Source of the DNA: Nocardioides pini
GTDB lineage: Bacteria > Actinomycetota > Actinomycetes > Propionibacteriales > Nocardioidaceae
Direction: 5' to 3'
Assembly: GCF_026712185.1 (NCBI RefSeq)
Contig: NZ_JAPPUX010000006.1
Location: forward strand, 1 to 64,000
Length of the DNA stretch: 64,000 bases
Both the position numbers and the translations under genes were made by a program. The notes beneath the pieces were generated by a model. The model saw nothing but the letters and a program-made list of their open reading frames with translations, searched no databases and was not told the origin of the DNA. Below, piece by piece: positions 28,980 through 46,440 of this stretch. How positions within the stretch are numbered: position 1 is the stretch's first letter; every line of letters starts with the position of its first letter.

Positions 28980-31370
28980 TCAGCCCAGTCGCTGGGTGCG
29001 GAGCCGGAGCGCGTTGACGATCACGCTGACCGACGACAACGCCATGGCGGCAGCGGCGACCATCGGAGACAGCAGCCACCCGAAGGCGGGGTACAGCACG
29101 CCGGCGGCGATGGGGATGCCCAGCGCGTTGTAGCCGAACGCGAGCCAAAGCCCCCTGCGGGTGTTGTTCATGACGGCGTGGGAGAGCTGGCGGGCGTGGG
29201 CGATGCCGTTCAGGTCGCCTCGCAGCAGCGTGACGCTGGCGGACTCCATGGCGACGTCGGTGCCGGTGCCCATCGCCAGGCCCACGTCAGCGGCTGCCAG
29301 AGCCGGGGCATCGTTCACCCCGTCCCCACTCATGGCGACCACGCGGCCCTCGGCGCGGAGCTTGTTGACGACGTCTGCCTTGTGATCGGGCAGCACCTCC
29401 GCCTCGACCCGGTCGATGCCCAGGTCAGAGGCGACGGCGGCGGCGGTCACCTGGTTGTCGCCGGTGAGCATGATGACCTCGACGCCCTCCTTGCGCAGCG
29501 CCGCCAGCGCGGCCGGGGTGGTCTCCTTGACCTGATCGGCGATGCCGATGACGCCCGCCGGGGCCCCATCGACTGCAACGAGGACGGCGGTGGCGCCGGT
29601 ACGGCGCAGGTCGTCGGCCTTGCCAGCCAGACCACCCGGGTCGACATCCTGGGACCGGAGGAAACCGGCGGTGCCGATGAGGACCTTGCGGCCCTCGACC
29701 GTGCCGAGGACGCCCTTGCCCGCGGGTGCGTCGAAGTCCGCGACCTCCGGCAGACGACTGTCGCTCGACCCGGCCCTGTCGGCCCGCGCCTTGTCGACGA
29801 TGGCACGAGCGAGTGGGTGCTCGGATGCGTGCTCGACCGCCGCCGCGAGGTTCAGCAGCTCTGCCTCGGTGTGAGCGGTGTATCCCTCGGCCATCTCGAC
29901 GGCGACGACGGCAGGCTTGCCCTCGGTGAGGGTGCCGGTCTTGTCGACGACGACCGTGTCGACCTTCTCCATCCGCTCGAGCGCCTCGGCGTTCTTGATG
30001 AGGACGCCCATCTGGGCGCCGCGGCCGACGCCGACCATGATGGACATGGGCGTGGCCAGGCCCAGGGCACAGGGGCAGGCGATGATGAGGACGCTGACGG
30101 CCACGACGAGCGCGTGCGCCAGCTTCGGGTCCGGACCGACGAGCGCCCACACGATGAACGCGAGCACCGCGATGCCGATGACGGTCGGCACGAACACGGC
30201 GGAGACGCGGTCGACGGTCCGCTGGATGGGTGCGCGGGAGCGTTGTGCTTCGGCGACCATGTTCACGATGCGTGACAGCATCGTGTCCCGGCCGACCGCG
30301 TTCGCGCGGACGAGCAGCGCGCCGGTCTGGTTCAGCGTGCCGCCGATGGCGTTGTCGCCGGGCTCCTTCGTCACGGGCATGGACTCGCCGGTGACCAGGG
30401 ACTCGTCGACGGCGGACTTCCCGTCCTCGACGAGCCCGTCGACGGGAACCTTCTCCCCGGGCCGCACGCGCAACAGGTCGCCGAGCTTGACCTGGTCGAG
30501 GGTGACCTCGTCCTCGGAGCCGTCCACGGCCACGCGGCGTGCGGTCCTGGGTGAGAGGTCGAGGAGGGCCTTGATGGCACCGGATGTGGCCTCGCGGGCG
30601 CGGAGCTCGAGAACCTGGCCGAGGAGCACCAGGGTCGTGATGACAGCGGCGGCCTCGAAGTACACGTCGACGGCGCCGTCCATGCGGAACGCCTCGGGAA
30701 AGATGCCGGGCGCGAGCGTGGCGACGACGGAGAACAGCCAAGCGACGCCGGTGCCCATCGCGATGAGCGTGAACATGTTGAGGTTGCGGGTCCGCACGGA
30801 CGCCCAGCCGCGGATGAAGAACGGCCATCCGGCCCACAGCACCACCGGCGTCGCGAGCGCGAGCTGGACCCATGCCGACGTCGTGGCTGTGATGTTGTCG
30901 TGGAGCCACGGGACGAGGTCGCGGCCCATGCCGAGGACGAGGACGGGGATGGACAGGACGACGCCGACCCAGAACCGTCGGGTCATGTCGCGCAGCTCGG
31001 GTGACGGGCCGGTGTCGGCGGTGACGATGACGGGTTCGAGGGCCATGCCGCAGATGGGGCAGGCACCGGGGCCGTCCTGCCGGATCTCCGGATGCATCGG
31101 GCAGGTGTACTCGACCGCCTCACCGGCGCCCGCGGTCGGCGGCTCGCCGCCCGCCCGAGCACCCTGCCCGTCGCCGGCATGGTTGTGGTCGGCGTGGTCG
31201 TGGCCAGCGTTCTCATGGTGCCGGGTGTACTGGGCGGGGTTGGCAAGGAACGTGTCCTTGCAGCCGGCGGAGCAGAAGTGGAACTGCTGGCCGTCGTGGT
31301 CGGCCGCTTGGTCGGTGGTGGCCGGATCGACGGTCATGCCACACACAGGATCGGTGACCTGGCGCGACAT
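28980..31370 (-). CDS. copA: Copper-translocating P-type ATPase
   Basis: A 796-residue P1B-type ATPase. The N-terminus has a YHS-type metal site ([16 protein letters not shown], residues 7-37), a His/Asp-rich linker, and a second metal-binding unit YTCPMHPEI...CPICGMAL (88-111). Eight helices follow; the ion path has [11 protein letters not shown] (431-441), the phosphorylation motif is DKTGTLT at 476, the phosphatase motif TGES at 327, and the SEHPL and GDGVNDAP motifs are present. CPC with these motifs indicates Cu(I) export. The MSRQ start was chosen because GGAGGCGACC precedes it; an ATG at 31403 overlaps the upstream stop codon. A CsoR-like operator lies just upstream. Confidence 0.92.
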
Positions 31371-31399
31371 GGTCGCCTCCGGGCGGTGGGTGTGCGCCT

Positions 31400-32035
31400 T
31401 CATGACTTCACCATACCCCTGGGGGGTATCATGTTAAGAGTGCTGAGCAGTGGCGAAGCCGGCCGGCCCTGCAGCAGCTCGACCACCTCCTGGGTGGACA
31501 CGACGGTGGCGAACTCGCCGTCGAGGTTCGTCGCCGTCGTGCGCGCCAGCTCGTCGGCGGTCACCACGTGCCCCTCCGGGCCGGTCCGATCGAAGGTGTG
31601 CGTCGCGTCCAGGGCGAAGAGGACGTCGTACCCGAGGTCCCCCGCCGCACGCGCTGTGGTCTCGCAGCAGTGATTCGTCGTGATCCCGCTGATCACCAGC
31701 GTGCCGATGCCGTTGGCTGCGAGCCAGCGGTGGAGGTCGGGTGCGCCATGGAAGCAGGAGTGGACGGTCTTGGTCACCAGCAGGTCCGGCGCCGAGGCGC
31801 GCAGGTAGTCCTTGAGTGCGTGTCCCGGGTTGTCGGGGTGGAACAGGCTTCCAGGTTTGCCGGACCGGTGCTGGACGAAGACCACGGGAAGGCCGGCGTT
31901 GCCGAATGCGTCGACGAGGTTCGCGATGTTCCGATCGGCGTCGCGGTTGTTGCGTCTCCCCCATCTCGGGTCGTCGAATGCTTCTTGGACGTCGATCACC
32001 ACCAGTGCGGTGTCAGGGCGTCGTGCGTCGTCCAT
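31400..32035 (-). CDS. Isochorismatase-family cysteine hydrolase
   Basis: A 211-residue alpha/beta hydrolase. The catalytic triad of the family is visible: aspartate in VVIDVQEAF, lysine in [12 protein letters not shown] and cysteine in [15 protein letters not shown], with the cis-peptide stretch VISG. Related enzymes hydrolyse isochorismate, nicotinamide or other amides; the substrate is not predictable. The enzyme core ends at about residue 190 ([13 protein letters not shown]); the last 20 residues are encoded by the copA promoter and its operator, an odd extension. The stop overlaps an upstream ATG of copA as ATGA. The start follows GAGGAGCAGAC. It may be transcribed with the copper genes or only be their neighbour. 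Confidence 0.85.
31413..31429. promoter_or_regulatory. CsoR-like copper operator upstream of copA
   Basis: ATACCCCTGGGGGGTAT is a near-perfect inverted repeat of the type TACCCC-N-GGGGTA recognised by the Cu(I) repressor CsoR. It lies 43 bp before the chosen copA start and inside the 3' end of the isochorismatase gene. Copper should therefore derepress copA-DUF6153-DUF305. No csoR gene is in this window, so the repressor must be encoded elsewhere. Confidence 0.75.
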
Positions 32036-32144: not shown

Positions 32145-35100
32145 TCAGGACGCCACGATGGGCATCAACGCCGCCATGTCGCGACGCTCGTGTGGCGGAG
32201 CGGGACGGGCCGACGACTCACGGATCCGAGCCGCCTCGACGAGCAGCCGCCTCGCCTCGTCCTGCTCGCCCCTCGCCGACGTCAGGCGTGCCAGGCTCTC
32301 GAGCGAGGTGGCGACGAGGCCCGGCTCACCGACCGTCCGACCGGCAGCCAACGACTGCTCGAAGCGGACGAACGCGCTCTCCAGGTCGCCGTCGGCCTCG
32401 TCGCAGCGGGCAAGGCCGGCCAGGGACAACCCCTCTGGTACCGGCGTGCCCAGGACCGCGAATCCGGCCATCGCCGCTTCGTACCCCTTCCGTGCTGCCG
32501 ACCAGTCCTCGCGCACCTGAGCGACCAGGGCCCGGCCGTACGTCGCGAGCACCTCCCCCGCCCCGTCTCCGACCTGCCGTGAAGCGGCGGCAGCGCGGTC
32601 GAACAGGTCGTTCGCCGCAGAGACGTTGCCGAGGTGCAGCTGCCCGACCCCGAGGTCGGCAAGGGCCCACTGCACGGTGTTCCACAGCCCAGCAGTGGTC
32701 GCCACGTCGATGGCCTCCTCGAGGACCCGTGCGCTCTCCTCGTAGCGACCGAACTGACGCAGTCCCCAGCCCAGGTGGTAGAGGATTGCGGACAGCCCCC
32801 ACGGGTCGTCGAGGCGGCGGAACGCCGACGCGGTGGCCCTCCCCAGGGGCACGGCGCCCGCCTCGTCGCCGGTCTTGAGGGCCGTCTCCATGCGGACGAA
32901 GCCGATCACGGCGCTCCCCCACGGATCGTCGTCCGCGTCGAACTGGGCCTCCGCCTCGGTCAGCAGGCGTTCGCGCTGCGCGGGGTCCGCGCCGGTCACC
33001 CCCTGGACCGCCAGCAGCACACGGGACAGGGCTGCCCGTGACCGCTCACCGAGCTCGTCGAACAGCAGGAGGCTCTCCCGCGCCGTCTCCTCGCAGCGCG
33101 GGCTGGGGTGCACCAGGCACGCACGGGGCCGTTCGACCAGCGAGACCGCCTGCAGGGCGCTCGCTCGAGCCAACGGGCTGCCGCCGTGGGCGGCGAGCAG
33201 CCGGCCCAGGACCTCCCTGCCTTCCATGTGGCGGCCCAGGTGCCAGAAGAGGCCCAGCGAGCCCGCCATCGACAGTGCCGCGTCAGGATCGCCACCGGGG
33301 CCGCCGAGCCACGCGAGGGCGGCGCGGATGTTGGGCTGGTCGGCCCGCAGTGCCTCGAGGGTCGCGCGCTGGTCGTGCCCGCGCAGCGCCATCTCGGAGC
33401 CCAGTGCCAGGTCGCGGTAGTGCTCGGCATGACGACGCGCGAACTCGTCGGTCTCGCCGCGGGTCACGAGGCGCTCGGCGGCGTACTGCCAGATCGTCTC
33501 CAGCATCCGGTAGCGGGTGGTCGGGCCGGGCTCGACGACCACCATCGACCGTTCGACCAGCCGGCCGACGACGTCCAGCACCTCGCCCGACCCCGAGTCA
33601 AAGTCGGAGACGATCTCCTCGGCTGCATGGAGGGTCCACCCTCCCTGGAAGACGGACAACCGCTCGAAGACCCTCCTCTCCGCCTCTCCGAGGAGCTCAT
33701 AGCTCCAGTCGACCGTGGCCCGCAGCGTCTGCTGGCGCGCCTCGGCGGTCCGGGTGCCGGAGGTCAGCAGGGTGAAGCGTTGGTCCAGCCGACCGGCGAT
33801 GTCGGCAGGTGAGAGCGCTGAGGTCCGCGCCGCAGCCAGCTCGATCGCGAGCGGGATCCCGTCCAGCGACCGGCAGATCCGTCCGATGGCGGCCAGGTCC
33901 CTCTCGTCGAACACCGACCCGGGGCGAACGGCCCGGGCGCGCTCCGCGAACAGCTGCGCCGCCGCGAAGTCGAGCACCCGTCCTGGCAGGACGTCCTCCG
34001 GCGGTGTCTCGAGCGGCCCGACGGACACCTGCACCTCGTCGGGCACCGCGAGCGCCTCCCGGCTGGTGGCCACCACGGTGACGTGGGGGCACCGGCCCAG
34101 GACGTCGTCGACGAGCGCCGCGACCGCATCGACCACGTGCTCGCAGTTGTCGACCAGCAGCAGGAGCTGCTTGTGCCCGAGGAAGTTGATGACCCTCTCC
34201 CGGACGTCGCGGTCACCCGCCGCGCCGTCCATCGGTACCCCCAACGCGTCCGCCACGGCCATCGGGACCTGGTCGGCGTCGTTGATCGCCGCGAGACGGA
34301 CTCCGAACGCGCCGTCCTCGAAGTCGCCGGCGACGCGTGGCGTGATGGCCAGCGCCAGGCTCGTCTTCCCGGCCCCTCCCGGGCCGATCAGTGACAGGAG
34401 CCGCGCCTCCCCCACCAACCCGGTGAGGGCGTCGAGCTGGGCGTCGCGACCGATCAACGGCCGGACCACGGTCGGAAGGTTGGTGGCACGGACCGCGGCA
34501 GCCGCGCGTGGCCGCGGGGTCGGCACGACGACAGGTACCGGAGGTGCCAGGTCGGCGGGGCCGCCCAAGGACGGTTCCTGCCGCAGCACCCGTTCGTGCA
34601 GCGAGCGGAGCGTCAGCGACGGCTCGAGCCCCAGCTCCTCGTCGAGCTCGTCCCGGGTCCTGGCGAACACCTCCAGTGCGTCGACCTGCCGCCCGCTGCG
34701 GTACAAGGCGACCATCAGCAGGCCGGCCATCGCTTCCAGGGTCGGGTCCGCCGACACGACGGGCTCGAGCTGCGCGAGGACCTCGGCGTGCCGCCCCAGG
34801 GCGAGGGCGACCTGGGCCCGCTCCGTCATCGCCGCGATCTTCAGCTCGGACAGGCGTGCCGCCTCGGCGATCGCCCACTGCTCGGTGGTGAAGTCGCTCA
34901 GGGGCTCGCCGGACCAGAGGGAGAGGGCGTCGTCGTACCGAGCGAGCTGCTCCGCGGTGTGCCCGTCCGGGGTGCCGGTCGCGTTGATCGCGCGTGCCTC
35001 GCGCAGCTGCTGCTCGAACTTGTGGGCGTCGACCTGGGTGGGGGCCACGTCCGCGCGGTATCCGACGCCCTCACGTGTGACGACGTCATCCAGGCCGACC

Positions 35101-35336
35101 GCCTTGAGCGAGCGTCGCAGCTTGGAGACTCGGATCTGCAGGGCGTTCATGGGGTCGACCGGCAAGGTGGATTCCGACCAGAGTCGATCGACCAGCAAGG
35201 TGGCCGGGATCGTCCGTCCGGGCGCCAGCAGGAGCTGTGCCATGAGCGCGCGCTCGGCAGCTCCCGGAAGCTTCGCCGACCGACCGTCGACCGTCATGCC
35301 CATCGGCCCGAGCAACCGGAACTGCGGCTGACCCAT
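32145..35336 (-). CDS. AfsR/SARP-type regulator with BTAD, AAA ATPase and TPR region
   Basis: A 1063-residue protein with the same layout as that at 15085: winged helix (about 1-98), BTAD (about 103-250, ending ELDEELGLEPSLTL), STAND ATPase with P-loop GPGGAGKT (318-325), Walker B LLLVDNCEHV (about 400), a helical DNA- or ligand-coupling part, and alpha-helical repeats to the C-terminus. Such proteins switch on neighbouring genes, often for exported metabolites. It is the first gene downstream of the HMA/MFS group and 109 bp behind the isochorismatase gene in the same orientation. What signal it senses is unknown. Confidence 0.9.
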   Translation of the reverse strand: MGQPQFRLLGPMGMTVDGRSAKLPGAAERALMAQLLLAPGRTIPATLLVDRLWSESTLPVDPMNALQIRVSKLRRSLKAVGLDDVVTREGVGYRADVAPTQVDAHKFEQQLREARAINATGTPDGHTAEQLARYDDALSLWSGEPLSDFTTEQWAIAEAARLSELKIAAMTERAQVALALGRHAEVLAQLEPVVSADPTLEAMAGLLMVALYRSGRQVDALEVFARTRDELDEELGLEPSLTLRSLHERVLRQEPSLGGPADLAPPVPVVVPTPRPRAAAAVRATNLPTVVRPLIGRDAQLDALTGLVGEARLLSLIGPGGAGKTSLALAITPRVAGDFEDGAFGVRLAAINDADQVPMAVADALGVPMDGAAGDRDVRERVINFLGHKQLLLLVDNCEHVVDAVAALVDDVLGRCPHVTVVATSREALAVPDEVQVSVGPLETPPEDVLPGRVLDFAAAQLFAERARAVRPGSVFDERDLAAIGRICRSLDGIPLAIELAAARTSALSPADIAGRLDQRFTLLTSGTRTAEARQQTLRATVDWSYELLGEAERRVFERLSVFQGGWTLHAAEEIVSDFDSGSGEVLDVVGRLVERSMVVVEPGPTTRYRMLETIWQYAAERLVTRGETDEFARRHAEHYRDLALGSEMALRGHDQRATLEALRADQPNIRAALAWLGGPGGDPDAALSMAGSLGLFWHLGRHMEGREVLGRLLAAHGGSPLARASALQAVSLVERPRACLVHPSPRCEETARESLLLFDELGERSRAALSRVLLAVQGVTGADPAQRERLLTEAEAQFDADDDPWGSAVIGFVRMETALKTGDEAGAVPLGRATASAFRRLDDPWGLSAILYHLGWGLRQFGRYEESARVLEEAIDVATTAGLWNTVQWALADLGVGQLHLGNVSAANDLFDRAAAASRQVGDGAGEVLATYGRALVAQVREDWSAARKGYEAAMAGFAVLGTPVPEGLSLAGLARCDEADGDLESAFVRFEQSLAAGRTVGEPGLVATSLESLARLTSARGEQDEARRLLVEAARIRESSARPAPPHERRDMAALMPIVAS

Positions 35337-35508: not shown

Positions 35509-35727
35509 TCAGGCCAGCTGGTAGCCGGCCTCCGCGACGGCCTCACGCACCTGCTGGGTGGTGATCGGCTGCCGCGTGGTCACGTGGACCTTCCCCGAGG
35601 CGAGGTCGACCTCGACCTGGGAGACGCCGTCGAGGGCGCTGACTTCCTCGGTCACGGATCGGACGCAGTGGTCGCACGTCATGCCGACGACGTCGTAGGT
35701 CTGGGTGGTGGTCTCAGCGGGAGTCAT
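35509..35727 (-). CDS. Heavy-metal-associated (HMA) domain protein, CopZ-like
   Basis: A 72-residue protein that is one HMA domain: first strand YDVVGMTCDHCVRSV with the copper-binding GMTCxxC pair, then ALDGVSQVEVDLASGKVHV and the terminal EAVAEAGYQL. This is the CopZ-type chaperone that carries Cu(I) to CopA in the cytosol. The start at MTPAETTT was chosen for length and the preceding GGAGAACCACC. It follows the MFS gene by 57 bp and ends at a terminator. It is the only obvious metal chaperone with CxxC near copA, 4 kb away. Confidence 0.9.
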   Translation of the reverse strand: MTPAETTTQTYDVVGMTCDHCVRSVTEEVSALDGVSQVEVDLASGKVHVTTRQPITTQQVREAVAEAGYQLA

Positions 35728-35784
35728 GGTGGTTCTCCTTCTCTTGGTGGTGCCGGCCATGGGCGGCCGGCCTTGGTGGGACTG

Positions 35785-37230
35785 TCAGACCGCTGCGGGC
35801 AGCTCGTCGGTCTCGGGGGTTGCCGGAGCGGTGGACCGCAGCCAGGCATTTGTGACCAGGGCACCTACGGCCGCGATCGCGGCAGCGCCGAGCAAGCCGG
35901 CGGAGTAGCCGGCGGTCTGTGCGGCGGCGTCACCAACGCGATCGGCACCGAACGCCGAAGCCAAGGCCGTCATCGCAGCGAGCCCGAGCGCGGAGCCGAC
36001 CTGGTAGTTGGTGCTCACGATGCCGGACGCGAGGCCGCCCTCTTCGGGCGCAGCCGAGGACAGCGCCAGCCCGAGCGAGGGGATGAACGCCATCGCCATG
36101 CCTGCAGCGGTCACGAGGGACGCGGGCAGGACGTCGGCGACGAAGCTGCCATCGGGCCCGATGAACGACAGCCACACCAGGCCCGCCGCCAGGACCGCGA
36201 GTCCGGCGACCGTCATCGCCTGAGGACCGAATCGGCCGATCAGGCGCGGCGCCAGCGCGATCATCCCGATCATGATCGTGACCGTCAGGGGCAGCAGGGC
36301 GGCACCGGACGCGAAGGCGCCGAGACCGAGGACCTGCTGCAGGTAGAGGTTCACGAAGAAGAACATCGGGATCCAGGCCGCCCCCAGCATGAACTGGGCG
36401 AAGTTGGCCGCCGCCAGGTTGGGCGCGCGGAAGATGCCGAGCCGCATCAGCGGCTCACGGCGCCTGGCCTGCAGGAGGACGAAGGTACTCAGCAGGCCGA
36501 TGCCGGCCGCGCCGGCCAGCAGGGTGATCGGCGAGGTCCACCCGGACTGCGGCGCCGTGACGACGCCGAACACCAGCGACCCGAGGCCGGCGGTGACGGT
36601 GACGGCACCGGCGACGTCGAGCGAGCCGGGCCGCGTCGTTCCCTGCGGCATCACGGAGCGCATCGTGGCGAGGACGACCGCCGCCAGGGGCACGTTGATG
36701 AAGAAGACCCACGGCCAGCTGGCGTACTCGGTGAGCACCCCTCCGAGGAAGACGCCGGCCGTTCCACCGGCCGGAGCGGCCGCGCCGTACAGGGACAGGG
36801 CCTTGGTCAGCTCACCGGGGTTCGCGCCGAAGATCGTGAACAGCAGCGTGAGCGCGGCCGGCGCGATCAGCGCCGATCCAGCGCCCTGGACGGCGCGGCC
36901 GACCAGCTCGGTGGTCGGGTTGGCGGCGAGACCGGCCAGGAGGGAGCCGACGGCCAGGATCGCCCAACCTGCGCCGAAGATGCGGCGGGCGCCGAACAGG
37001 TCCGACAGGCGCCCGCCGAGGAGGAGGAGGCCACCGAAGGCGACCACGTAGGCGTTGAACACCCAGGTGAGCCCCTCGGGGCTGAAGCCGAGGTCTCGCT
37101 GCATCTCGGGAAGCGCGACGCCGATGATCGAGGTGTCCATGATGACCATGAACTGGGCCGCGGCGATGAGCCCCAGAGCCAGCCAGCGTCGGCTGCTCGG
37201 GGTCCCCGCGGGCGTGTGGGTGGAAGACAT
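35785..37230 (-). CDS. MFS exporter of the DHA2 (EmrB/QacA) type
   Basis: A 481-residue transporter with about 14 membrane helices. The N-terminal half has VIMDTSIIGVALPEMQRDLG, the motif-D1 stretch of drug:H+ antiporter family 2, and GGRLSDLFGARRIF, the loop 2-3 motif. Helix 5 holds GPALGGxxx-like PAGGTAGVFLGG. Such proteins export drugs, dyes or toxic metabolites. Its neighbours on both sides encode HMA proteins in the same orientation, which raises the idea of a metal-linked substrate, but the protein itself has no Cys/His-rich motif. Substrate unknown. Confidence 0.88.
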   Translation of the reverse strand: MSSTHTPAGTPSSRRWLALGLIAAAQFMVIMDTSIIGVALPEMQRDLGFSPEGLTWVFNAYVVAFGGLLLLGGRLSDLFGARRIFGAGWAILAVGSLLAGLAANPTTELVGRAVQGAGSALIAPAALTLLFTIFGANPGELTKALSLYGAAAPAGGTAGVFLGGVLTEYASWPWVFFINVPLAAVVLATMRSVMPQGTTRPGSLDVAGAVTVTAGLGSLVFGVVTAPQSGWTSPITLLAGAAGIGLLSTFVLLQARRREPLMRLGIFRAPNLAAANFAQFMLGAAWIPMFFFVNLYLQQVLGLGAFASGAALLPLTVTIMIGMIALAPRLIGRFGPQAMTVAGLAVLAAGLVWLSFIGPDGSFVADVLPASLVTAAGMAMAFIPSLGLALSSAAPEEGGLASGIVSTNYQVGSALGLAAMTALASAFGADRVGDAAAQTAGYSAGLLGAAAIAAVGALVTNAWLRSTAPATPETDELPAAV

Positions 37231-37390
37231 GCTGATGCCCTTCTCTGAGGTGGGTCGAACGGGTGGCGTGCCCCCGCGGTGGGCCCGTGACGGGGTGCGG
37301 TGGAGTCACGTTCGGTGCGAAGGTTGCTGCCGGGTCCTGTCCCGGTGCTGTCGTGCGTCTGTCGCTGTGTGACTGCCGGCTGTGGGCGGG

Positions 37391-37600
37391 TCAGACCTCG
37401 CGTAGGACCGGTCGGTAGGTCGTTCCCTCGAACGCGGCGAGCACGTCAGCGCGGGTCATGGAGCCGACGAGGTGGATGGTGGAGCGCAACGGGTCGGCGA
37501 CCACGCGCTCGACGCCGGCGACGTCGCGCAGTCGCGCGGTCACCTCACGTACGCAGCGGCGGCACGACATGCCGCTCACGGTGAGCTCCAGCTCGTCCAT
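37391..37600 (-). CDS. HMA-domain protein with CxxC
   Basis: A 69-residue single HMA domain: LTVSGMSCRRCVREV at the N-terminus, GVERVVADPLRSTIHL in the middle and AAFEGTTYRPVLREV at the end. Compared with typical CopZ it has arginines between the cysteines (CRRC), which is uncommon and may alter affinity or partner choice. It is 160 bp upstream of the MFS gene and divergent from the small-gene run at 37851. A role as a second copper or zinc chaperone is likely, but direct evidence is absent. Confidence 0.85.
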   Translation of the reverse strand: MDELELTVSGMSCRRCVREVTARLRDVAGVERVVADPLRSTIHLVGSMTRADVLAAFEGTTYRPVLREV

Positions 37601-37850
37601 CTCGTTGCTCTCTCACTGCCTGAGGCATCAGTCCTGTGGTGGTGAGCCAAGGGTGCGAGCCGGCGCTGTCCACTCGCTGTCCGTGACGACCCACGGGTGA
37701 ACGCACTTCCTGACCGTGCCCGCTGTCGCCCGTCCCGCTGTCGTCCGAACTGCTGCGCGGACAGCGCTCGGACAGAGCAGCGCAAGCCCTCGGTCGCACG
37801 GTCATCCCAGACACCGACACGTTCTCGGATCTCCCAAGGAAGTGGACGAC

Positions 37851-38015
37851 ATGGCTGCATCACGGAACATCGAGGAAGAGTCCGGGACCTACCAAGCCCG
37901 CCACCGGCACCCGCACAACGGGTACTACGCCGGCGACTTCTCTCGTCAGCCCCTTCGGCTGCTGACCTACCGGGACGGCCAGTACCAGACCGCCGTCGTG
38001 CGCTCGGTGTCATGA
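37851..38015 (+). CDS. 54-residue protein of unknown function, His/Tyr-rich
   Basis: Starts with MAASRNIEEESG and contains a compact basic, aromatic and histidine-rich segment (RHRHPHNGYYAGDF), then LRLLTYRDGQYQTAVV. It is soluble and not recognised by me. The ATG has AAGGAAG at 8 nt. The gene ends in an ATGA overlap with the next one, so it is translated together with 38012 and 38242. The four histidine/arginine pairs could bind metal, which would fit the HMA neighbours, but this is inference. Confidence 0.65.
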   Translation: MAASRNIEEESGTYQARHRHPHNGYYAGDFSRQPLRLLTYRDGQYQTAVVRSVS

Positions 38016-38245
38016 GCGCCACCGAGACGGAGAGCCCGCGAGTCAAGCAGATGCGCCCCGTCGTCGACGCACCAGACCACGACGTCGAGGTCGGTCACCG
38101 CTCGCTCCACCGACCGACCCGGACCCCGTGGGACTCGCTGAACTCGCGCCTCGCCGGACCTCCCGGGCTGCAGATCACCCTCTTCGAGGAGCTCGCACCG
38201 AGCCACCCATCCACGACCCACCAAACCGAAGGAGCACGGCCATGA
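38012..38245 (+). CDS. 77-residue protein of unknown function
   Basis: A small, probably partly disordered protein rich in proline, histidine and threonine (VDAPDHDVEVGHRSLHRPTR, then SRLAGPPGLQITLFEEL). It has no membrane segment and no known motif. It overlaps both flanking genes by 4 bp (ATGA), which is the best evidence that it is real. Confidence 0.6.
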   Translation: MSATETESPRVKQMRPVVDAPDHDVEVGHRSLHRPTRTPWDSLNSRLAGPPGLQITLFEELAPSHPSTTHQTEGARP

Positions 38246-38514
38246 CCACCTACCACCTCCAGATCAACGGCTCGTCCGACGCGAGCCACGCCAGCCGCCT
38301 CGAGTCGAACCTGCGCCGTCTCGTTGGCGTCTCCGACGCCACGACCGACCGCAGGGGCAACGTCGTCGTCCGCGGCGGAGAGGGCCTCTTGCCACTCATC
38401 AGGTGCGCGCTCACCGGAGCCGGATACGAGATCGCCTCCGACCGCGTCGCACACCGGATCCCGTCCGTCACCCGCTGGTACCAGCAAGGCTGGCTGACCG
38501 CGTCCATGCGCTGA
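38242..38514 (+). CDS. HMA-like fold protein lacking the metal-binding cysteines
   Basis: A 90-residue protein with the strand-helix-strand-strand-helix-strand rhythm of HMA domains: YHLQINGSSDASHASRLESNL, GVSDATTDRRGNVVVRG, LIRCALTGAGYEI. Where true HMA proteins have GMTCxxC it has NGSSDASH, so Cu(I) binding as in CopZ is lost. A C-terminal tail (about 68-90) is aromatic and basic. It could be a regulator or partner of the HMA proteins encoded 1 kb upstream, or a member of another ferredoxin-like family. It ends the coupled three-gene run 37851-38514 and is followed 25 bp later by a tiny zinc-ribbon-like gene. Confidence 0.65.
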   Translation: MTTYHLQINGSSDASHASRLESNLRRLVGVSDATTDRRGNVVVRGGEGLLPLIRCALTGAGYEIASDRVAHRIPSVTRWYQQGWLTASMR

Positions 38515-38539
38515 GCCGCACCGAGAGGAGGCGACACCG

Positions 38540-38689
38540 ATGCACGCGATCACCCCGGCCACGAGGCCACGGACCGCGGCCCGGATGCCCGGAGCCGCTC
38601 CGGCCTGCTGGTGCGGACAAGAGCTCGATGTCGCCCGCCACGGCCACTGCCCACGGTGTGGACGCAGGCGCGCCACCTTCCCGCACTGA
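38540..38689 (+). CDS. 49-residue zinc-ribbon-like protein
   Basis: A very short frame beginning MHAITPATRPRT and holding CWCGQELDVARHGHCPRCGRRRA. The pairs CxC and CxxC, spaced by 13 residues, with histidines between, form a minimal zinc-ribbon or knuckle. A strong ribosome site, GAGAGGAGG, stands 9 nt before the ATG, and the gap to the preceding gene is 25 bp. A metal-binding role would suit the neighbouring HMA-type genes. The gene is easily missed because of its size. Confidence 0.6.
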   Translation: MHAITPATRPRTAARMPGAAPACWCGQELDVARHGHCPRCGRRRATFPH

Positions 38690-38741
38690 AGTCCACGAAA
38701 CCGCTGTTGACGCGCAGGCGCCAACACCCCCGAGGAGAACC

Positions 38742-39755
38742 ATGAGAGCCGCCGTAGTCGGCACCGAGCCGCAGGAACAACCTGTCCGAGTCATGGAGGT
38801 GCCCCGTCCCCACGCCAGAGGCGACTGGGTCGTCGTACGCCTGGAACGCGCCAGCCTCAATCGACTCGACGCCATGATGTTGGAGCAGCGGACCTCCGAA
38901 GCCCCGGGCGCGATCTTCGGCTCCGACGGAGCGGGCGTCGTCCACGAGCTCGGACCGGACGTCCCCACGTCCACGGGCTGGGCAGTCGGCGACCACGTCA
39001 TCGTCTCCCCGTCGCTGCACTGGGGCCCGGACGAACGCTTCCCATCTCCCGAGTACGAGATCCTCGGCTCCCCCACCCACGGCACGCACGCCGAGTACGT
39101 CGCCGTCCCGACCGCCAACCTCCACGCCAAGCCCCAGCACCTCACGTGGGACGAGGCGGCATCGCTGCCCATGGCCGGACTCACCGCATGGCGGGCACTG
39201 GTCACCCGCGGTCGCCTGGCGAAGGGCGAGACGGTGCTCGTGGGAGCCGCATCGTCCGGAGTCGGCACCGCAGCCATCCAGATTGCCGTAGCAGCCGGCG
39301 CGCGAGTCGTTGCCGTCACTGCCTCGGGCGCCAAGGCCGCCGAGGCTCTTCAGCTCGGCGCTGCCGCAACGGTCGACCGCACCGCCGGCGACCTCGCCGA
39401 CCAGCTCCGGGCCGCCACGGGCGGTCGCGCCGACCTCGCGCTGGACCCGACCGGCAGGCTCTGGGGCCAGTTCGTCGAGAACCTACGCCCGGCCGGCCGG
39501 CTCGTCGTCGTAGGCAAGATGGCCGCGGCCGCCGCAACCCTCGACGTCCAGTCGGTCTACTGGAAGCAGGTCGACGTCCTGGGCTCGTCGATGGGCAGCC
39601 CTCGCGACTTCGCCGCGCTCCTCGCCCAGGTGACGGCCCGCCGCTGGGCCCCGCGCGTGGACAGCGTGTTCCCACTCGACGACATCGCGGCCGCCTACAC
39701 GCGCCTCGACGCCGCCGACCGCGTCGGAAAGGTCGTCCTCGATGTCCGCGCCTGA
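38742..39755 (+). CDS. Zinc-independent quinone oxidoreductase-type alcohol dehydrogenase (MDR family)
   Basis: A 337-residue medium-chain reductase. The catalytic-type N-terminal domain has ASLNRLDAMMLEQ and GSDGAGVVHELGPDV; the cysteine/histidine zinc ligands of alcohol dehydrogenases are absent, so it belongs to the quinone-oxidoreductase group. The NADPH-binding Rossmann part has VLVGAASSGVGTAAIQIA (about 165-182). The start follows CGAGGAGAACC. It stands alone between the metal-related small genes and a secreted protein gene, all on the plus strand. The likely reaction is NADPH-dependent reduction of a quinone or enone. Confidence 0.88.
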   Translation: MRAAVVGTEPQEQPVRVMEVPRPHARGDWVVVRLERASLNRLDAMMLEQRTSEAPGAIFGSDGAGVVHELGPDVPTSTGWAVGDHVIVSPSLHWGPDERFPSPEYEILGSPTHGTHAEYVAVPTANLHAKPQHLTWDEAASLPMAGLTAWRALVTRGRLAKGETVLVGAASSGVGTAAIQIAVAAGARVVAVTASGAKAAEALQLGAAATVDRTAGDLADQLRAATGGRADLALDPTGRLWGQFVENLRPAGRLVVVGKMAAAAATLDVQSVYWKQVDVLGSSMGSPRDFAALLAQVTARRWAPRVDSVFPLDDIAAAYTRLDAADRVGKVVLDVRA

Positions 39756-43274: not shown

Positions 43275-46200
43275 GGCGGGCGATCCCGTGCTGGCCACAG
43301 TCATGGATGCCAAGGATGGGCCCAGGATCGACGCGCGGATCCTTGGTCTCCTCGACCTACGGGTGGACGGACAACCGGTCGAGATAGCCACGCGCCGCCA
43401 GCGTGCCCTCCTGGTCCTGCTGCTCCTCAACGTCGGCCGGGTGGTCAGCACCGAGCGCCTGATCGACCAGCTCTGGGACGGCGCACCTCCGCCTCAGGGC
43501 GCCGTGACGCTGCGGTCGTACATCTCGAACCTCCGGCAGGCCCTGGGCGCGACGGGTGCGCTCGGGTCTGCCCTCGTCACCCGCGGTCCCGGGTACCTCA
43601 TCGACCTTCCAGCGGAGTCGGTCGACGCCACGCGGCTGCGGACCCTCACCCAGACAGGCCGCGACCTCCTGCGACAGGGCGCGGCGACCGACGCGCTCAC
43701 CACCCTGGACGAGGCGGTCGGACTCTGGACCGGAGATCCGTTGTCCGAGGTGTCGGACCACCAGTTCGCACAGAGCATCGTCGCGCAGCTGACGGAGACC
43801 TATCTGGCGGCGGTGGAGGGCAGGTTCGAGGCGATGCTCGCCGCCGGACGGCATGCCGACGCCCTTCCGGAGCTCGACGGCTTCGCCGCCGACCACCCCT
43901 TGCGGGAAGAACCGCAGGCGCTGCTCATGCTCGCGCTGTACCGATGCGGGCGGACTGCCGACGCGCTGGAGGTCCACCGCAGGTTTCGGGTCATGCTCGA
44001 CGACGAGCTGGGCATCCTCCCCTCGAGCCGCATGGACTCACTGCTCCAGCGGATCCTGTCGCAGGATCCCGACCTCGACCCACCGCCCGCCGCACTCGAG
44101 GCCGATGCCCTGCCCGCCGCTACGACCCCGAGCCCCGCGGCTGCGTCCACAGAGAAGGCACTTCCGGCGCCCGCCGCCGGCGGTTCGACTCGGATGCTCG
44201 TCGGACGCGAGCGAGAGCTCGGCGTGCTGCAAGCCGCGCTCGACAGACTCACCACGAGCGGCACGGGGTCGCTCGTGCTGCTGGCGGGCGAGCCCGGCAT
44301 CGGCAAGACGACACTGCTCGAGACGCTCGATGAGATGGCGCGTCGGCGGAACGTCCCTGTGCACTACGGCCGGTCCCCCGCCGCGTTCGGGGCACCCCCG
44401 TTCTATCCGTGGTCCCAGGTCGTCGACAGCGTGGCGGCACGCCTCGGCGACCAGGAGCTCGAGTCGCTCGTCTCGACCCGTGCGCGGCCGGTCGCCCAGC
44501 TGTCACCTGCGGTCGCCGGTCGAGTCGGAGTCGAGGTCCCACCGCCCGGCGACATCGTGAGCGCCATGCGGTTCCCGCTGTACGAGGCGGTCTCGACCTA
44601 CCTCTGCCGAGCCGCCGATGGCCCGCTCGTGGTGCTGCTCGACGACATCCACTGGGCAGACCTCCCCAGCCTGGAGCTGCTGTCCTACCTCACGCCCTCC
44701 CTCGCCACCCGGCCGCTCCTCCTCGTCGCGGCCTACCGGGACCTCCCGAGCGACACCAGCGAGGCGTTGGACGCGACCCTTGCCACCGTCTCCCGCGAGG
44801 ACGTGACCTCGGAGGTCCACCTCGGTGGCCTCGCCCAAGGCGACGTAGCGGTGCTCGCGGCCGACCTGCTCACGACCGCTGCACACCCCGAGCGACACGA
44901 GCGCTTCGCCGACGTCCTCTACGAGCGCACCGGCGGCAACCCGTTCTTCGTCCGCCAGCTGGCGCGCCTGCTCCTCGAGGACGATCCGCCCGTCGCGACG
45001 CGTCCTGCTCCTGTCCCGCCCGGTGTGCGCCACGTCATCGCAAGCCGGCTCAAGCCGTTGCCCGCCGCAGTCACCGCCCTGCTCGCCTCGGCCGCTGTCA
45101 TCGGACGCGAGTTCGACCTCCGCACGGCAGCCACCGTGGCCGGCATCGAGCTGGAGGAAGCGCTCGACGCCTACGACATCGCGGCCCGGCACGGTCTCGT
45201 CGAGCCGACCGACGACGGCGGACACACGTTCGTCCACGCGCTCGTCCAGGAGGTGGTCCTCGAACGCCTCCCGGCCGGGCGGGCCAGCAGGCTCCATGGA
45301 GCGGTCGCCCAGCTGCTGGCGCACGAGGGTGCCAGCTCGCCCGCGGTCGTCGCCACACACACCTGGGCCGCGCGTGACGTGCTGGGACCGGCAGCGGTCG
45401 AGTCACAGCTGGCGGCAGCCGACGCGGCCGTGGCGGTGTGCGCCCACGAACAGGCCGAAGTGCACCTCCGACGCGCGCTGCACCTCGTGCGTCAGGCGTC
45501 ACCACCAGACCCCGACGCCGAGCTGTCGGTGCTGCTGACCCTGCTACGGCTCATCATCACCTCCCGCGGCTGGGGCCACCACGGGGCGAGAGCGGTCGCG
45601 GACCGAGCGCTCCACCTGGCCGAAGCCGGTGCCTTCAGCGACGACAACGCCCGCCTGTGGTGGTCGCTGTTCTTCCTCCTCATCGACCAGGACGACCAGG
45701 CGTCATACGTCGGCGTCGCGCGCTCGCTCCTGGCCGCGTGCGAGGCCCCCGATCCCCGCGGCCGGATCGGGAACGCCTCCCGCGCCTCGGTGCACCTCAT
45801 GGCCGTCTTCGACGCGTTGTCCACCGACGACCGGGATGCGGCCCGCCGTCACCTGACCCGTGCCGGCGAGCTGATCGAGGCCGCAACCGCGGCGGAGACG
45901 TCCGCATACGACGAGAACCTCCACGTCATGTACCACCTGATCGAAGGTGCCTGGTTCGGCATGCAGGGCGACGGCGATGCCCACCAACGGGCCGTCGAGG
46001 CGGCGGTCGCGCTCGCGGACGCCGACGGCCGTCCGTTCCCTCGCGCTGTGGCGCGCGCCCTGGGCGCGGTCCAGGCCTTCTACAGCCCCGGGCACGACTA
46101 CCTGAAGGAGCTCGCCGACCCGGCGCTCGACCTCTGTCTCCGGTTCGGATTCGGTTGGCTGGGCACGGTCGCCGAGTCGGTCCACGAGTGGTCCGAGGCA

Positions 46201-46440
46201 CTGGCCGGCGGCGACGGCACCCGGACCGTTGCCGCCCTCCAGACTCGGCTCGAGGACATGACACGCGGGGGTCGCAACGGCACTCGCTCGACCATGCTGG
46301 CCCTGCTCGGCGACGTCCACGCCGCACTCGGTGAACCAGATCTTGCTCGGGAGACCTACCTGCAGGCACGGCAGGACCCCGGGCCCTACCGCCAGCTCTT
46401 CATCACCCTCCTCGACCGAAGGATGGCGTCGCTTCCATGA
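43267..46440 (+). CDS. BTAD/AAA regulator (SARP-like, with AAA_16-type ATPase)
   Basis: A 1057-residue regulator. The winged helix and BTAD cover about 25-265 (ending MLDDELGILPSSRM). An AAA_16-type ATPase follows with P-loop GEPGIGKT (341-348), Walker B LVVLLDDIHWAD (about 455) and sensor stretch ERTGGNPFFVRQLARLL. The C-terminal 350 residues are helical repeats. Unlike LuxR-type LAL regulators there is no C-terminal helix-turn-helix; DNA binding must be N-terminal. It overlaps the permease by 8 bp and the CPBP gene by 4 bp, so it is embedded in the operon rather than divergent from it. Confidence 0.9.
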   Translation: MPEAGDPVLATVMDAKDGPRIDARILGLLDLRVDGQPVEIATRRQRALLVLLLLNVGRVVSTERLIDQLWDGAPPPQGAVTLRSYISNLRQALGATGALGSALVTRGPGYLIDLPAESVDATRLRTLTQTGRDLLRQGAATDALTTLDEAVGLWTGDPLSEVSDHQFAQSIVAQLTETYLAAVEGRFEAMLAAGRHADALPELDGFAADHPLREEPQALLMLALYRCGRTADALEVHRRFRVMLDDELGILPSSRMDSLLQRILSQDPDLDPPPAALEADALPAATTPSPAAASTEKALPAPAAGGSTRMLVGRERELGVLQAALDRLTTSGTGSLVLLAGEPGIGKTTLLETLDEMARRRNVPVHYGRSPAAFGAPPFYPWSQVVDSVAARLGDQELESLVSTRARPVAQLSPAVAGRVGVEVPPPGDIVSAMRFPLYEAVSTYLCRAADGPLVVLLDDIHWADLPSLELLSYLTPSLATRPLLLVAAYRDLPSDTSEALDATLATVSREDVTSEVHLGGLAQGDVAVLAADLLTTAAHPERHERFADVLYERTGGNPFFVRQLARLLLEDDPPVATRPAPVPPGVRHVIASRLKPLPAAVTALLASAAVIGREFDLRTAATVAGIELEEALDAYDIAARHGLVEPTDDGGHTFVHALVQEVVLERLPAGRASRLHGAVAQLLAHEGASSPAVVATHTWAARDVLGPAAVESQLAAADAAVAVCAHEQAEVHLRRALHLVRQASPPDPDAELSVLLTLLRLIITSRGWGHHGARAVADRALHLAEAGAFSDDNARLWWSLFFLLIDQDDQASYVGVARSLLAACEAPDPRGRIGNASRASVHLMAVFDALSTDDRDAARRHLTRAGELIEAATAAETSAYDENLHVMYHLIEGAWFGMQGDGDAHQRAVEAAVALADADGRPFPRAVARALGAVQAFYSPGHDYLKELADPALDLCLRFGFGWLGTVAESVHEWSEALAGGDGTRTVAALQTRLEDMTRGGRNGTRSTMLALLGDVHAALGEPDLARETYLQARQDPGPYRQLFITLLDRRMASLP

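Follow-up and report, generated by a model that had tools for sequence, protein, structure and literature searches.

Positions 37391 to 38689 of the 64,000-nucleotide stretch of Nocardioides pini DNA analyzed here (the window) probably mark where a copper (metal) efflux regulon begins, with its divergent promoter and leading genes; this regulon would be driven by a SARP-type regulator and include satellite small proteins. Five small frames lie in this interval: CRRC-HMA (37391-37600, reverse strand) and, on the forward strand, P1 (37851-38015), P2 (38012-38245), P3 (38242-38514), and P4 (38540-38689). The original prediction had placed these frames beside an MFS exporter and a CopZ-like gene and had proposed that they form one metal-sensing or metal-delivery set. 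The spot that it singled out is real, but the border of the unit was drawn wrongly: one of the five frames is a pseudogene remnant, another (P3) occurred in no more than two of the 215 genus genomes searched, and the likely organizer is a SARP gene (32145-35336, reverse strand) that lies outside the interval.

Genes and a VOC remnant in the interval

Both 4-bp ATGA overlaps (P1 with P2, and P2 with P3) were present, and the four frames other than P2 were compared with their counterparts in Nocardioides sp. Root122. Identity between the two was 87% for CRRC-HMA, 79% for P3, and 78% for P1 and for P4. The corresponding dN/dS values, which are rough given how short the genes are, were 0.21 (CRRC-HMA), 0.29 (P1), 0.37 (P3), and 0.43 (P4), compared with 0.11 and 0.19 for the neighboring MFS exporter and oxidoreductase genes; when P1, P3, and P4 were read in shifted frames as a control, the values ranged from 0.91 to 3.46. 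These alignments indicate purifying selection on four of the five frames, all but P2. Codon-position composition gave scores of 15.3 for P3, 6.5 for P1, and 3.5 for P2 (barely supported). The score for P4 was negative (-6.3, not called), so that the case for P4 as a gene rests on its conservation among relatives in place of composition. Shine-Dalgarno sequences, judged by eye, were seen for P1, P3, and P4; by the same inspection, none was found for P2.

P2 has kept the start and the end of a glyoxalase/VOC protein and has lost its middle. Of 58 other Nocardioides genomes, 17 gave matches to P2 (lowest E 1.3e-12); 11 of these loci were read, and the matching protein was glyoxalase-like in every one. 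When P2 was compared with ten of the proteins (the eleventh, L107, was left out), its last part aligned with the VOC end in 10/10 and its first part with the VOC start in 8/10 (best E 2.5e-5), which is why we regard the middle as deleted; a BLASTP comparison with one VOC protein instead aligned the first part of P2 to that protein's middle. Relative to the superfamily, whose domain spans about 120 residues, P2 retains the start (VKQMRPVVDA) and the end (PTRTPWDSLNSRL...LFEEL), and some 90 residues between them are missing, so that it is not a working VOC protein. In Root122, most of the P2 stretch is absent. P2 was therefore rejected as a gene, given that only the first and last parts of the VOC domain align and that it has no Shine-Dalgarno sequence by eye. 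The interval thus holds four genes and one remnant; the coupled trio described earlier does have its two overlaps, but it is not a trio, as its middle frame is the remnant. At another locus (L088), the P2 relative beside a P1 gene matched Pfam Glyoxalase at E 4e-10. Intact VOC/glyoxalase-type genes adjoin P1 on the opposite strand in L088 and L103, an arrangement that fits an old P1-VOC neighborhood behind the remnant in the window.

Further genes flank the interval. To the left, all on the reverse strand, are a DHA2-type MFS exporter (35785-37230; Pfam MFS_1; NCBIfam efflux_EmrB at 207.8 bits, below the cut-off of 230.2), a CopZ-like HMA protein (35509-35760, although the start may be 35727; Pfam HMA, E 2.6e-16; NCBIfam TIGR00003 at 64.1 bits, cut-off 62), the SARP gene, an isochorismatase-like protein (31400-32035; Pfam, E 4e-32), and a copper-type P-type ATPase (28980-31403) in which Pfam recognized YHS and HMBD domains and which carries CPC and YN/SS motifs. 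To the right, the next gene on the forward strand encodes an MDR-type oxidoreductase (38742-39755; Pfam ADH_N and ADH_zinc_N), which occupies the same place in Root122.

The cassette and its GGACAG repeats

CRRC-HMA (69 aa) is the first gene of the leftward unit. It matched Pfam HMA (E 2e-8; 34.9 bits, cut-off 24.8) and carries the CxxC pair of an HMA metallochaperone as CRRC at residues 13-16. Its top NCBIfam match was CopZ_AFE_1862 (NF047957; E 3.8e-11); however, the score was 43.2 bits against a cut-off of 85, and CRRC replaces the usual site. When 149 family genomes were searched with a CRRC-HMA profile (E 1e-9), five of them, the window's own included, gave six places in total, and the gene was also present in Root122, G175, and G480. 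The copy in G050 at L055:8328-8606 reads RRRC at the metal site and has thus lost the first of its two cysteines.

Around most of the CRRC-HMA places, P1 and CRRC-HMA stand back to back with the MFS gene behind CRRC-HMA, and CopZ, ATPase, and SARP genes follow in varying order. This cassette (divergent P1 and CRRC-HMA, DHA2-type MFS, CopZ, copper-type ATPase, and AfsR-type SARP) extends past the interval and was recognized in eight genomes, namely the window's own (G000), Root122 (G189), G050, G055, G129, G175, G091, and G480. There were exceptions: G055 ends inside the MFS gene; the P1 of G480 is located elsewhere in the genome; in G091, no P1 was seen and MFS precedes CRRC-HMA; and in G050, the ATPase has CPD rather than CPC and lies some 10 kb or more away, with no CPC ATPase in the loci read. 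Elsewhere (G000, G189, G129, G175, G091, and G480), the ATPases contain CPC, YN, and SS motifs, which we take to denote the Cu(I) type; two of the six were also scanned with Pfam. These motifs make copper the likely substrate of the ATPases and, by extension, suggest copper for the regulon. The ATPases near the same SARP differ in type, with YHS/HMBD domains in the window and an HMA-type enzyme with a YtkA-like part in Root122 (L060:11098-14391).

The SARP of the window (1063 aa) has Trans_reg_C, BTAD, and TPR domains above cut-off and an AAA/STAND match below it; Trans_reg_C and BTAD were above cut-off in the G480 regulator as well, so that both proteins have the winged-helix DNA-binding and BTAD parts of a SARP. 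Over the first 260 residues, six other cassette SARPs were 67-91% identical to that of the window, compared with 37% for a second SARP of the window. The latter, a large SARP-type regulator at 43288-46440, is located downstream of the rightward genes. A search with the SARP N-terminus in 75 order genomes at E 1e-60 returned only the window's own.

The 250-bp gap between the divergent P1 and CRRC-HMA genes contains two exact GGACAG-N5-GGACAG sites (11-bp period); the entire 4.5-Mb genome has three. One of them faces CRRC-HMA (37666-37682, reverse strand), is kept in Root122, and is followed 10 nt later by the beginning of the -10-like hexamer CACCCT (37650-37655, reverse strand). The other faces P1 (37759-37775, forward strand), with CAAGCC, a possible -10 region of P1, 7 nt behind it (37783-37788, forward strand). 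In seven cassette genomes, 26 exact sites were counted, of which 21 lay no more than 30 kb from the cassette and 5 lay elsewhere; the reversed control pattern occurred three times, always in G091, and base composition predicts about one site per genome. Each of the eight cassette genomes has such sites ahead of cassette genes, and one of the eight (G480) was recognized by its clustered sites. Moreover, a site pair was located upstream of 6/6 cassette P1 genes but of 0/19 other P1 genes. In a control of 14 genomes chosen only for P1, 21 sites were found versus 12 for the reversed pattern, and sites were clustered in a single genome, G480, where the three sites belong to a full cassette in which CRRC-HMA stands between the site and the MFS gene. 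Eight of these 21 sites were read: the G480 cluster of three, and five in four genomes picked for CG after the first repeat, none of which (0/5) was in a cassette.

The spacing behind the sites was compared with that of known SARP promoters. According to excerpts of the cited sources, the direct repeats of SARP promoters are spaced by 11 or 22 bp, with the 3' repeat 8 bp away from the -10 region, and the -10 of afsS is CACTGT (PMC10936776); the sites of PimR are heptamers with 4-bp spacers, again giving 11 bp (PMC5930380). Among 22 cassette sites (20 exact and two with one mismatch, from nine loci), CANNNT occurred exactly 10 nt behind 11 and 9-11 nt behind 12, against a background of 2.8% for 9-11 nt. 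CAA was found 7 nt behind the site before 6/6 cassette P1 genes. CA at either +7 or +10 was present at 21/24 exact sites near cassettes versus 4/10 elsewhere; the CRRC-HMA site of G480 is among the three near-cassette sites that lack it. Counted from GGACAG, the distance from site to CA is thus 7 or 10 nt, versus the 8 bp reported.

It seems quite unlikely that a different regulator binds the sites, with the SARP as a bystander. Such a reading could appeal to the SARP gene of the window, which has no site directly before it; it is opposed by the 11-bp period, which fits the SARP promoters described in the part of PMC10936776 consulted, by the -10 placement, which may fit them, and by the co-occurrence of SARP and sites in each of the seven cassettes with a visible SARP gene.

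The genes behind the sites bear on what the regulon is for. CRRC-HMA followed by MFS was found behind sites in seven loci, a second CRRC-HMA in G050, MFS in G091, CopZ in L058, L085, L120, and L059 (followed by an ATPase in the first three), P1 in six, and P4 directly in G175 and G480. Two further sites have less familiar genes behind them: one on contig 29 of G175 (L118), possibly a genuine target, stands ahead of a short frame and a hydrolase gene, and one in G050 (at position 1686 of L056) is followed by an Arg-rich 54-aa frame (L056:1431-1595), a possible further small member of the regulon. Counting against a copper-efflux role, the MFS protein resembles drug exporters. An alternative that we judge unlikely, while giving it appreciable weight, is that drugs, quinones, or electrophiles are what the SARP regulon responds to. 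The MFS exporter and the oxidoreductase would then be its center and the copper genes accessories, included since such compounds disturb copper and thiols too. The best matches of the MFS protein, which were to EmrB/LmrA/TcmA-type drug-export models, would agree with this, as would the oxidoreductase, the lost VOC gene, and the hydrolases in or near P1 units. However, sites also precede CopZ with ATPases (L058, L085, and L120) and CRRC-HMA in eight places, and we therefore favor a role in copper (metal) efflux.

The small proteins P1, P3, and P4

P1 (54 aa) was delineated by profile search and has the core IEEESGTYTGxxHxHNGYYAGDFS. A 31-residue profile of it, run against 391 order genomes, identified 23 places; these were spread over 18 genomes, five of which had two. 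Together with G050 and G055, 25 P1 genes were read, and 24 were aligned; L094, whose start codon is not in place, was left out. Across the 24, the core was conserved and the last 20-30 residues varied freely. None of these members had a Pfam or NCBIfam match at E 0.1, and the profile had no match among solved structures at E 1. A single-sequence search in 296 class genomes recovered only P1 itself, and the profile, when run against 296 phylum and 296 class genomes, recovered the window's own gene plus one weak partial match in each set (G841 and G442; E 0.005). No P1 was found in viral contigs, and neither P1 nor P3 had a match on plasmids. A structure model of P1 was of low confidence (pLDDT 61.4, pTM 0.31) and was not used.

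P1 was also found at 19 places without the cassette, so that a link to metal is not what defines it. By eye, a histidine kinase and a response regulator lay within about 2.5 kb of P1 in five of the loci outside the cassette, four of which also had an ABC transporter. In L086, L092, L099, and L102, P1 is divergent from the kinase and accompanied by the ABC transporter; with L090, these loci form a second recurrent P1 setting with another kind of regulator. In L087, L089, and L093, a large LuxR-type regulator (family assigned by eye) lies no more than 7 kb from the P1 relative. Upstream of P1 in L095, L097, L100, L103, and L104, we noted by eye a motif of roughly TGTCGA-N13-CCGTTCGTGG, which may be a promoter for an alternative sigma factor. 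One P1 relative (L104:7955-8143) diverges from the family after HNGYYA and is perhaps frameshifted.

The conserved N-terminal and variable C-terminal parts would also suit a leader peptide or the precursor of a modified peptide, particularly as the last 20-30 residues are so free to vary. We consider this very unlikely: no peptide-modifying enzyme stood out on reading through the neighbors, the genes behind P1 differ between loci, and a promoter and terminator scan of 37200-39000 returned no match and no terminator-like hairpin.

P4 (49 aa) resembles a mini zinc ribbon. Its consensus, CWCGQ-x5-R-x-G-x-CxRCG, is common to relatives in four genomes, with the CxC and CxxC pairs invariant, so that the earlier description of a minimal zinc ribbon appears to be a fair reading. 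P4 had no Pfam or NCBIfam match above cut-off, and its one match in viral contigs, which lies in no P4-like frame, was taken as chance. The P4 of G175 was found when a site lacking a called gene was read, and that of G480 was found with the G480 cassette; both stand directly behind a site. In the window and in Root122, P4 is on the same strand as the P1 site, 847 nt and 724 nt behind it, respectively. Behind P4 in the G480 cassette is a 45-aa frame (L127:4368-4505) with no Pfam match. As judged by these searches, P1 and P4 are conserved small proteins outside any Pfam or NCBIfam family and would constitute new families.

P3 (90 aa) appears to be a cysteine-less relative of HMA proteins, in agreement with its earlier description as an HMA domain whose metal site has been erased. 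By phmmer, it matched the HMA region of Bacillus subtilis CopA (E 1.8e-4 and 3.3e-4); by hhalign, it aligned to CopZ-like proteins at 86.6% and to CRRC-HMA at 62.7%; and no Pfam match was obtained at E 1. The CxxC pair of an HMA metallochaperone is absent from P3 in both the window and Root122. The structure prediction that had been suggested as a check yielded the HMA order of elements (b-a-b-b-a-b; pLDDT 65.7) but did not single out HMA: the top Foldseek row was CopA at E 0.057, and the VIA Z score was 5.3 for an HMA protein versus 6.2 for unrelated rows. At E 0.01, the P3 search gave matches in 120 of 215 genus genomes; two of these were P3, in the window and in Root122, and nearly all others were inside long frames. 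Four of the non-P3 matches were read by eye, and these were helicase-like proteins (L002, L014, and L022) and CopA (L043). A family search (14 of 197 matched) and a scan of genome contigs (one locus) both agreed with the rarity of P3, which was rejected as a conserved part.

With respect to gene order, CRRC-HMA, P1, and P4 recur in other Propionibacteriales, but P3 and the P2 remnant do not bear out a conserved five-frame cluster. The idea of a single, self-contained set of small frames for metal sensing or delivery is therefore highly improbable, even though the frames are adjacent and include HMA-like and CxxC proteins; in addition to the remnant and the rare P3, P1 and P4 are apart in G175 and G480. 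The link to metal that the original prediction had postulated is supported by the association of CRRC-HMA with CopZ, with copper-type ATPases in 6/8 cassette genomes, and with common promoter sites.

A predicted SARP regulon and its meaning

The sequences themselves show that the genes are conserved and under selection, where the sites lie, and that the cassette regulators are orthologs; the mechanism built on this is inferred. In it, an activated AfsR-type SARP would bind both direct repeats (11-bp period) of the 250-bp gap, recruiting RNA polymerase in both directions. As the operons are predicted from sequence, leftward transcription would extend through CRRC-HMA, the MFS exporter, CopZ, the SARP gene, and CopA, and rightward transcription through P1, P3, P4, and the oxidoreductase. 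The role would most likely be copper (metal) handling, with copper as the presumed signal: CopZ and CopA would take Cu(I) out, and CRRC-HMA and P4 may be metal-binding proteins that serve as carriers or buffers. P3, its ligands lost, could act only through pairing with another HMA domain. As a small protein switched on by the SARP, P1 would occupy the place that AfsS has relative to AfsR.

The closest known parallel is AfsR-afsS of Streptomyces which, in the part of PMC10936776 consulted, comprises a large SARP with AAA/NOD-like and TPR parts and 11-bp direct repeats at the promoter of a small-protein gene. SARPs are described there as activators of antibiotic biosynthesis, whereas the predicted targets here are copper-chaperone, ATPase, and exporter genes. 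The likeness of P1 to AfsS would be one of position. The cassettes also resemble CopZ/CopA copper efflux in their CopZ-like HMA proteins and CPC-type ATPases, but here a SARP takes the place of CsoR and CueR, the usual metal regulators of such systems, and MFS, CRRC-HMA, P1, and P4 are present in addition. A full-text search of the literature found no description of the regulon or of P1. What is new here is the link between the sites and the regulon, together with the P1 and P4 families; the remnant at 38012 is ordinary.

More tentatively, it is possible that this branch of AfsR-type SARPs is a copper-responsive activator of CRRC-HMA, MFS, CopZ, and CopA that acts via GGACAG repeats and deploys two new small-protein families, and that P1 is a general stress peptide of Propionibacteriales, captured separately by unlike regulators (SARP, two-component, and LuxR-type) and passing on their signal as AfsS does. 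To our knowledge, the signal detected by the sensor half of large SARPs is unsettled. If true, a SARP with copper-chaperone and copper-ATPase targets would provide a testable signal for that sensor half, with one compact promoter and a defined site.
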